The position numbers and the translations under genes were made by a program. Of a stretch of 40,165 bases of DNA, positions 33,744 through 36,187 are shown piece by piece. This stretch comes from Candidatus Heimdallarchaeota archaeon (lineage in GTDB: Archaea > Asgardarchaeota > Heimdallarchaeia > Heimdallarchaeales > Heimdallarchaeaceae). The stretch spans positions 1 through 40,165 of the forward strand of contig JAEOTE010000056.1 in assembly GCA_016839945.1 (NCBI GenBank). Reading direction: 5' to 3'. Under the pieces are notes generated by a model. The model was not told where the DNA came from and did not search any database. It worked only from the letters and a program-made list of their open reading frames with translations. Within the stretch, counting starts at the first letter, position 1. Each line of letters opens with the position of its first letter.

Positions 33744-34067
33744 TTATATTTGTTTATTGTTTGTAGGAAATCTTTCTCTCATAATATTTATTTCCTTTCT
33801 CCAAGATTCTTCTAAATCTATATCAAGAAGAATGCACAATTGCAAGAACAAAGAAAAAGCTTGAGCAAACTCTCTAGTCATGTCCTCTTTAGGTGGTTCC
33901 TTATGTCCTTGTTCCTCTTTTTTATATTCTGAAAGAAATAATAGATACTTTCCTATTTCTCCTAATTCTTCAATCAAATGAATGAAAACATCATTTGGTG
34001 AATACTTTAACCAGTCCCTCTCTTGTAGAAAATAACGAACTTCTTCAACTATTTCGCTTAATTCCAT
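33744..34067 (-). CDS. MazG-like NTP pyrophosphohydrolase-fold protein
   Basis: In this 107-residue all-helical protein the first MazG metal motif EExxE is present in HLIEELGEIGKYL (about 30-42). The second motif, normally ExxD in a later helix, is degenerate: the helix reads REFAQAFSLFLQL, with Glu present but Ala where Asp is expected. Activity is therefore doubtful, although another acidic residue might substitute. Family members remove pyrophosphate from (d)NTPs. The 12-base gap to the upstream winged-helix/RING gene and 22 bases to the ABC gene indicate one operon. Confidence 0.65.
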   Translation of the reverse strand: MELSEIVEEVRYFLQERDWLKYSPNDVFIHLIEELGEIGKYLLFLSEYKKEEQGHKEPPKEDMTREFAQAFSLFLQLCILLDIDLEESWRKEINIMRERFPTNNKQI

Positions 34068-34079
34068 ATTGTCACCTTT

Positions 34080-36187
34080 CTATGTTGCATACGCTTTCAG
34101 TGTTTGCATTGTAACCTTAGATTTACATATTGGACATTCTTCTTTTATTTTTAACCACTGAAACATATGATCATTATGTGCTAGATTTGAACATTGAGGA
34201 CATTCAAGAACTGTATCTCCGTGTTTAATAAGTCCTTGACAAACTGAGCATTTTTCTGGTATTTGATTACAATTGCTACAAGGTTCATAAGCTGACTTGA
34301 TTAAATTGCCACAGCTTAAACAATGCATTTTACGTGATGGTAAAACTAGTTTTCCTATTTTCTCAAAATAAGTAGAGGTTATAATTCCTTTATAATATCC
34401 ATGAGCAGCTAATTGTGTGACTATTCTGAATATATCTCTTTCAGCTAACGATGATTTAGTTGCGAGAGTACTTATTTTCACTCTCTTTCTTCTTGATTTT
34501 TCTATTTCATTCACAATTTGAACATATTGTTCCCCTAATTCTTCTAGATCTCGAGTAGGGAGAAATTTCTGAAAAGATATAACATAGAAGGAATTTCCGC
34601 TTAGTTTCATATTTAATAATCCAGAGCCTGTTATCTCAAAAACTATGTTTTTAACTGCTACTGATGATTTACTCCAAAGTTTCTGAAGATTACTTAGTGT
34701 AACTCTTTTATTAGAAATTATATATCCAAATATCTCTTGATAATGAATTGGTAGATCATCCAACTGAACCAAAGGTGGAAAGATTGGTATCTCATCAGGT
34801 TCGAGTTTGTTTCCTGAAATATTCCCTTTAATTAATCCCTTGCCGTAAAATGCATAGAGTTTTTCCAATGCAAAATATTTGTCAACTCCTAAAGCTAATG
34901 CAATGTCTTTAACACTTATACTTGATTTAGCAACAACCATTCCTAATACAATCTTTTCCCATCTCTCCAAAGTTCCCTCTTGAGCTCTGCTATATCTTCT
35001 AATGACATCAATGTAAAGGGTGTTACCTTTCAATGTGCAAGATATAAATCCTTCAAGTGATAAAGTAATGACTCCTTCTAGAATTTCACCAACTGATCTG
35101 TTCATGAGTGACATAAGTTTTTTCAATGGAATTTTATCTTGAGTTGAAATTAATCCAAAAAGAGCTTCATAATTAAAGAAAGATAAAGTTGCCATCTCTT
35201 CAATAGTTCTCTTTGGTCTTAGATCTGGAATAACTACAGGTGTAATATAGTTTGCTTCAGTAAAAATGAATTGAAATGTTCCTCTAGCAGTAAGGAGTGC
35301 TAGGACTTTGCTTGCTTCTAAAGGTTCCATATCCATAAATTTCGCTAAATCTTGAATGGATGTTTTCTTCTTTAGAATTACATAACCAACAGCTTCTTTT
35401 TCCTTACCTTGTAGAGCTTCTAAAGGAAGAATTCGAGGTGAAATATGGTACTTGTTTACCGTAATTACAACTTTTGGAAAACCAATAAGTTGCGATTCAA
35501 TATCAAATTTTGCATCTAATTTTCTGTACAACATCAATCTTGCAATTCTTTCAATAACTTCTTCTTTTGAAAAATTAGTACGCTTTGCTACTTTACTTAT
35601 TTCTGCATTACGTAACATCATACATATTCCTACAATGAAAGTGTCCTCTGTTGCAATTGTTGCCTTTTCTGGAGGTTTCCAAATCCAATCAGGTATTATC
35701 TCGTTATCTTTAATTCTCCCTATGAATAATCCTCTACTGATTAGAAATTTTAGATTTTCTTCCATTTCTTCGGTTGAGATCTCAACTATTTTAGATATCT
35801 CACTAATCTTTACTTTTTTATTATAAACCAATAATCCAAGAATGTTTTTTCTAACAGCACTAAGTCTACCGGGTTTTATTTCAGGATGTTTAAAAACGGC
35901 TGAAACATTGAATTTGTTTTTTCGGTAGTAACCTCTAATTACAAGTAATTGAATTAAGTGTTGAACAAAAACTTTGATTGAAGAAATTTCAATTTCATGA
36001 TCTTCTGCATACTTTGATAATACAACTCCTCTATATAATAAGAGATGAGTGAGAAGGTGAGTCTGTTTTGCTTTGGATAGAGTTATTTCAGGAAGATCAA
36101 GTTTTGAGAAATTTAAATTATAAACATCTTCTCTTTCATAACTCAGTTTTATCAGCTCTAAAATGTTACTCTAATATTGATAATCAT
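34080..36187 (-). CDS. Tandem winged-helix protein with C-terminal zinc ribbon and RING-like finger; 5' end frameshifted
   Basis: About eight successive winged-helix-like units of 60-75 residues can be recognised by a recurring pattern (for example VKISEISKIVEISTEEMEE then a GLFIGRI wing; TSIQDLAKFMDMEPLEA; ISVKDIALALGVD; VKISTLATKSSL then GYYKGII). The last 75 residues carry a CxxC...CxxC zinc ribbon and then C-x2-C-x11-C-x2-C-x4-H-x2-H-x9-C-x2-C ending WLKIKEECPIC, like a RING finger. The nearest start-like codon (TTG 35831) is internal: the frame is open up to 36170 and encodes clear winged-helix sequence, but holds no ATG, GTG or TTG. The promoter-spaced ATG at 36187 is one frame off, and one extra T at the TTTT run (36160-36163, minus strand) would join them into 702 residues. 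It may be an E3-ligase-like or DNA/chromatin factor. Confidence 0.7.

Follow-up and report, generated by a model that had tools for sequence, protein, structure and literature searches.

In a 40,165-nucleotide stretch of Candidatus Heimdallarchaeota DNA (the window) we identified, on the minus strand, a gene whose product is predicted to be a single-chain RING-type E3 that uses ubiquitin and holds its substrate, or a complex, on a UFL1-type winged-helix (WH) scaffold. We assign this reading a probability of roughly 0.7. The architecture of the protein and its conservation are far beyond chance.

Gene and reading frame

The minus-strand frame is open from 36170 to 34083 (696 codons), with the stop codon at 34080-34082. 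The initial annotation had placed the upstream end at 36187, but the ATG at that position belongs to a different frame, which terminates after nine codons. Across the genus (L009-L029) the site equivalent to window position 36146 holds a conserved CTG, which a single species replaces by TTG. The sequence 5′ of this CTG is variable, with upstream in-frame stops that differ by species. Because of this pattern CTG 36146 was taken as the start, and the gene appears, from the sequence comparison, to use a non-ATG start yielding 688 amino acids. Comparison with the nearest ortholog (92% identity) gave dN/dS of 0.037/0.444, about 0.08. The features of the locus are listed below; residue numbers are counted from 36170, the start of the open frame.

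34080..36146, minus strand: WH-array RING gene, 688 amino acids plus stop; stop-to-stop frame, CTG/TTG start at the same position in relatives
35895..36074, minus strand: winged helix 1, residues 33-92 (AlphaFold2)
35682..35858, minus strand: winged helix 2, residues 105-163 (AlphaFold2); Pfam PCI match at residues 106-154, E 5e-6
35448..35651, minus strand: winged helix 3, residues 174-241 (AlphaFold2)
35238..35408, minus strand: winged helix 4, residues 255-311 (AlphaFold2)
35001..35171, minus strand: winged helix 5, residues 334-390 (AlphaFold2)
34797..34964, minus strand: winged helix 6, residues 403-458 (AlphaFold2)
34572..34748, minus strand: winged helix 7, residues 475-533 (AlphaFold2)
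34356..34532, minus strand: winged helix 8, residues 547-605 (AlphaFold2)
34263..34328, minus strand: zinc ribbon, C617 C620 C631 C634; ligands invariant in 29 orthologs
34101..34259, minus strand: RING, C641 C644 / C657 C660 / H665 H668 / C679 C682; V643, W672, P680 and K683 at E2-facing and linchpin positions
33744..34067, minus strand: next gene, 12 bases downstream of the RING gene; 107-amino-acid protein, MazG-like by eye

The winged-helix array

The AlphaFold2 model (29 orthologs; mean pLDDT 88.4, pTM 0.74) contains exactly eight winged helices followed by the zinc region, and each of the eight units is predicted to fold as helix-helix-helix-strand-strand. The initial annotation had marked roughly eight winged-helix-like repeats and would have been overturned by repeats of another fold; the predicted structure bears it out. 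The units are mutually homologous: most unit profiles matched most others at E < 0.01, a threshold passed by none of the shuffled decoys.

NCBIfam names nothing in the protein. In Pfam the commonest WH-family match among the orthologs was PCI (24/29 at E ≤ 0.1, best 2e-9), and the match of the window protein (5e-6) lies above the Pfam cut-off. The TFIIE-alpha, TrmB and RPC82 HTH families matched some orthologs or relatives. In a fold search the top hit was a UFL1-DDRGK1 chimera (8e-7, probability 1.0); ribosome-bound UFL1 came third, followed by TFIIIC (tau138) and SelB, and RPC62 was also among the matches. Whole-chain TM-scores were about 0.1 and the overall shape of the array was left unmatched; since the low scores presumably reflect a different array curvature, the match to UFL1 concerns the units and their order, not the overall shape. 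The winged helices of UFL1 have been called PCI-like (PMC9627666), and on the model the array is of the PCI/UFL1 type.

The recognition helices of the WH units are hydrophobic with net charges of -3 to +1; the pI of the whole protein is 9.2. Such helix charges are unlike those of typical DNA-binding winged helices and favour protein binding, and we infer that the array binds protein instead of nucleic acid.

The zinc ribbon and the RING

The two C-terminal zinc modules, the last of which had been read as a RING from the sequence, are a four-cysteine ribbon (C-x2-C/C-x2-C) and a C4H2C2 RING (C-x2-C ... C-x2-C-x4-H-x2-H ... C-P-x-C). All 12 metal ligands, together with W672 and P680, are invariant across the 29/29 aligned orthologs. 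The search for E2-binding surface residues that the initial annotation had called for showed that the E2-facing V/I643, W672 and P680 and the linchpin K/R683 are likewise kept in 29/29. In L117, a distant relative, Y takes the place of the tryptophan and G that of the linchpin.

The Pfam family zf-RING_2 matched 29/29 orthologs at E ≤ 0.1 (best 1e-7); the window protein's own match (1.2e-4) falls below the Pfam cut-off. The zinc region was also modelled separately (last 95 residues, mean pLDDT 79). The RING-only model fitted RNF165 bound to UbcH5b~Ub at 1.1 Å (TM 0.85 by target) and the Rad18 RING at 1.7 Å, and the zinc-region profile matched Arkadia/RNF165 at 1.8e-9 to 1e-8. As modelled, the last zinc module is thus a cross-brace RING and not the simple zinc ribbon that would have spoken against the earlier interpretation. 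When ribbon and RING were used jointly in the fold search, the nearest PDB folds were subunits of GATOR2 and IFT-A, and the ribbon-RING pairs of GATOR2 and IFT144 also appeared in the profile search with the zinc region.

Distribution and relatives

Orthologs with the array occur in 33/36 genomes of Heimdallarchaeales, the three genomes lacking one being 68-82% complete. The relatives' genomes are from Candidatus Heimdallarchaeota and include the complete genome of Ca. Heimdallarchaeum endolithica PR6; the genome to which the window belongs is itself incomplete (3.0 Mb, 186 contigs, 88% complete). The survey of Asgard genomes yielded two further, divergent relatives elsewhere in the phylum, L117 (family f29, 710 amino acids) and L118 (family f27, 663 amino acids), the latter with an additional ribbon at its N-terminus. 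RING proteins also occur in other families of the class, but the WH-array RING protein does not. In a tree the sequences clustered by family, as expected for vertical descent, with several long branches. No relative was found in the viral collection searched.

RING proteins of about 1020 amino acids in family f6 were considered as orthologs and rejected: they are membrane- or surface-like and carry the same ribbon-RING with no WH array. The same module is fused to many other Heimdallarchaeia proteins (L002-L008, L119-L122), among them a signal-peptidase-like membrane protein, surface proteins, an SF1-type helicase, a further helicase and the membrane proteins of about 1020 amino acids. Judged from their sequences, these fusions are a large RING expansion in Heimdallarchaeia.

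Gene neighbourhood

The 107-amino-acid MazG-like protein has no Pfam or NCBIfam match. The adjacency of its gene to the RING gene holds through most of the genus, which suggests that the two are probably co-transcribed. Most of the genus shares the order GS - RING - MazG-like - ABC, which is broken up in other families; this order is uninformative on function. Neither a ubiquitin gene nor ESCRT genes were found in the neighbourhood of the RING gene. In a single genome (G179) the WH-array RING gene is immediately preceded, on its own strand, by a proteasome-subunit gene (L118:865-1566).

Ubiquitin and UFM1 components in the genomes

The genome of the window encodes ubiquitin, E1, several E2s and Rpn11, and E2 is present in 57/57 related genomes. 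One locus of the window's genome (L134, G000 C69) combines E2, Rpn11/JAB, a multi-pass membrane protein ending in a RING, a further membrane protein, ubiquitin and E1. One of the four E2-family matches in this genome is a UEV-Vps28 protein: a single ORF (L136:1448-2842, G000 C129), directly after an E1-like gene, contains a UEV domain, the Vps23 core and Vps28, ESCRT-I subunits fused into one chain. Other Asgard genomes have standalone RINGs of 80-104 amino acids that are 35-39% identical to the RING of the window protein; in G074 (L125) ubiquitin, E2 and E1 are preceded by one such bare RING (RING-Ub-E2-E1 operon). A RING of this kind with an extra cysteine, the Caldiarchaeum srfp, is an E3 in vitro and requires I30, W58 and R69 (PMC5654768).

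UFM1 was found in none of the 57 genomes. UFC1-like matches exceeded the cut-off in 3/57, the genome of the window not being among them; these matches (G021:C7:37123, G015:C13:24935, G022:C1:533908) are weak (E 3e-6 to 1e-5) and come from Heimdallarchaeaceae without UFM1. The search for a DDRGK partner gave, within the genus, WH matches that mostly fell below threshold, and it gave none in the genome of the window. The window protein itself had no match to PF09743 (UFL1) at E ≤ 1, and only the relative L118 passed the cut-off (1.2e-5). In hhalign the protein aligned with Asgard UFL1-like proteins of family f19 over winged helices 1-3 (probability 92, E 5.6e-7). Most genomes of this large family encode such a UFL1-like protein of about 800 amino acids.

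Functional interpretation

In the mechanism that we propose, V/I643, W672 and P680 of the RING would bind an E2 that belongs to the archaeal ubiquitin cascade and carries ubiquitin, and K/R683, as linchpin, would prime ubiquitin transfer. The eight PCI/UFL1-type winged helices, arranged in a curve, may be a protein-binding scaffold for a substrate or a large complex, positioning the RING alongside, with the zinc ribbon joining array and RING. The E3 reading draws on the combination of eight winged helices, ribbon and RING, the fold match to E3 RINGs, the conserved contact residues and the ubiquitin cascade in the same genome. It draws also on the likeness to srfp-type operon RINGs, the PCI/UFL1-type array, the charge of its recognition helices, which is not DNA-like, and the proteasome adjacency in G179. 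Features of a RING E3 are thus present in the cross-brace ligands, in the E2-contact and linchpin residues and in the ubiquitin, E1 and E2 of the genome. Counting against it are the neighbourhood without a ubiquitin gene, L117 without tryptophan and linchpin, the closest ribbon-RING pairs in the PDB being those of GATOR2 and IFT-A, and the unmatched array shape (TM 0.1). An E3-like scaffold acting with archaeal ubiquitin-like modifiers, as the initial annotation had ventured, is the best-supported reading, still as a prediction, in view of the RING fold, the E2-contact residues, the ubiquitin cascade and the UFL1 fold match.

The ribbon-RING pair of GATOR2 and IFT-A subunits may be structural, and the window protein could likewise be a non-catalytic scaffold subunit whose ribbon-RING, in the manner suggested for subunits of GATOR2, IFT-A or HOPS, is a joint of a large complex and transfers no ubiquitin. 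The GATOR2 and IFT144 pairs, first in the zinc-region fold search and recurring in the profile search, point that way, as does the failure to find a ubiquitin gene nearby. However, the E2-facing residues and the linchpin are kept in 29/29 orthologs, the RING is close to the operon srfp RINGs and the genome has a complete ubiquitin cascade, and we consider such a role rather unlikely. A nucleic-acid-binding array resembling TFIIIC tau138, RPC82 or SelB, with a zinc tail, a role in transcription or translation and a RING of secondary importance, is improbable. The TFIIIC tau138, RPC62 and SelB winged helices among the fold matches, the TFIIE-alpha, TrmB and RPC82 HTH matches in some members or relatives and the overall pI of 9.2 are consistent with it, whereas the hydrophobic, neutral or acidic recognition helices, the first rank of UFL1/DDRGK1 and the predominance of PCI among the WH matches argue against it; factors of the tau138, RPC82 or SelB type are not known to carry an invariant E2-competent RING.

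Two more specific identities deserve very little credence. As a true UFL1 orthologue the protein would be the UFM1-type E3 of an archaeal UFMylation system, as might be thought from the best fold match (UFL1-DDRGK1), the PF09743 match of L118 and the presumed Asgard origin of UFL1/DDRGK1 (PMC10183829). The PCI-like WH array agrees with this, but the PF09743 profile does not recognise the window protein, and the expected partners are missing (UFM1 0/57, UFC1-like 3/57 and none in the same genome). UFL1 has an N-terminal UFC1-binding helix and no RING; the AlphaFold2 model of the window protein lacks a helix of that kind. Of the UFL1 likeness noted earlier, then, the array stands and the identity does not. 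Equally far-fetched is an Nse1 orthologue within an SMC complex. Tandem winged helices followed by a C4-H-x2-[C/H]-C2 RING with the ligand spacings of human NSE1 invite that comparison, which holds for domain order and spacings; yet there are eight winged helices instead of two, a ribbon intervenes, the Nse1 Pfam families (SMC_Nse1 / Nse1-RING) did not match at E ≤ 1, and Nse1 is absent among the PDB profile matches listed. ESCRT-II (Vps22/Vps25) was rejected on the number of winged helices (eight rather than two), the lack of ESCRT genes nearby and a weak fold match (E 0.05).

Origin and comparison with known systems

Asgard archaea are the closest known relatives of eukaryotes. Our literature search, which left out preprints and most subscription journals, found no report of a WH-array RING protein in these archaea. 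What appears to be new is the union of a UFL1-type scaffold and a srfp-kind RING in one chain, each of them known separately (PMC10183829, PMC5654768). An origin in Asgard archaea, predating UFM1 itself, has been proposed for UFL1 and DDRGK1 (PMC10183829), which raises the question of the original role of such scaffolds. The presence of this combination in a genome with ubiquitin, where UFM1 was not detected, suggests that the first modifier was ubiquitin, and the protein offers a single object for a direct test of that question. It also strengthens the case that ubiquitin ligases in Asgard archaea were equipped with substrate-docking architectures going well past the bare RING of the operon. 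A speculative and rather doubtful extension is descent from a common ancestor of the UFL1/DDRGK scaffolds, in which an Asgard ubiquitin E3 had a PCI-type WH array with its own RING, and eukaryotes later dispensed with the RING and turned the scaffold to use with UFM1.

Nse1 of SMC5/6 shares the order of winged helices before a C-terminal RING, the within-pair spacings and the x4 before the histidine. The published ligands of human NSE1 (C191 C194 C204 C207 H212 C215 C228 C231) form a C4HC3 RING, in contrast to the C4H2C2 RING of the window protein, where H668 replaces the fifth cysteine of NSE1; Nse1 differs further in having two winged helices, no ribbon, SMC partners and no profile match to the window protein. 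In the C-termini of GATOR2 subunits (WDR24, WDR59, MIOS) and of IFT144 a zinc ribbon likewise directly precedes the RING, but there the pair sits on beta-propeller/helical solenoid subunits, not on winged helices.

The complex of UFL1 and UFBP1 (DDRGK1), the top fold match, similarly has a PCI-like WH array as its scaffold. UFL1, however, has no RING and needs UFBP1, whereas the window protein has eight winged helices, ribbon and RING in one chain. The UFL1-like proteins of family f19 (L126-L133, about 800 amino acids, probably Lokiarchaeia) resemble it in their tandem winged helices with a PF09743 match and differ in their N-terminal zinc fingers; a C-terminal RING was looked for in them and none was found. 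With the srfp of archaeal ubiquitin operons (e.g. Caldiarchaeum) the protein shares a RING with an extra cysteine, the E2-facing residues and the linchpin; I30, W58 and R69 of the Caldiarchaeum protein are, by kind of residue, the likely counterparts of V643, W672 and K683. The srfp is a bare RING of 80-104 amino acids in an operon, whereas the RING of the window protein ends a 688-amino-acid scaffold outside the operon.
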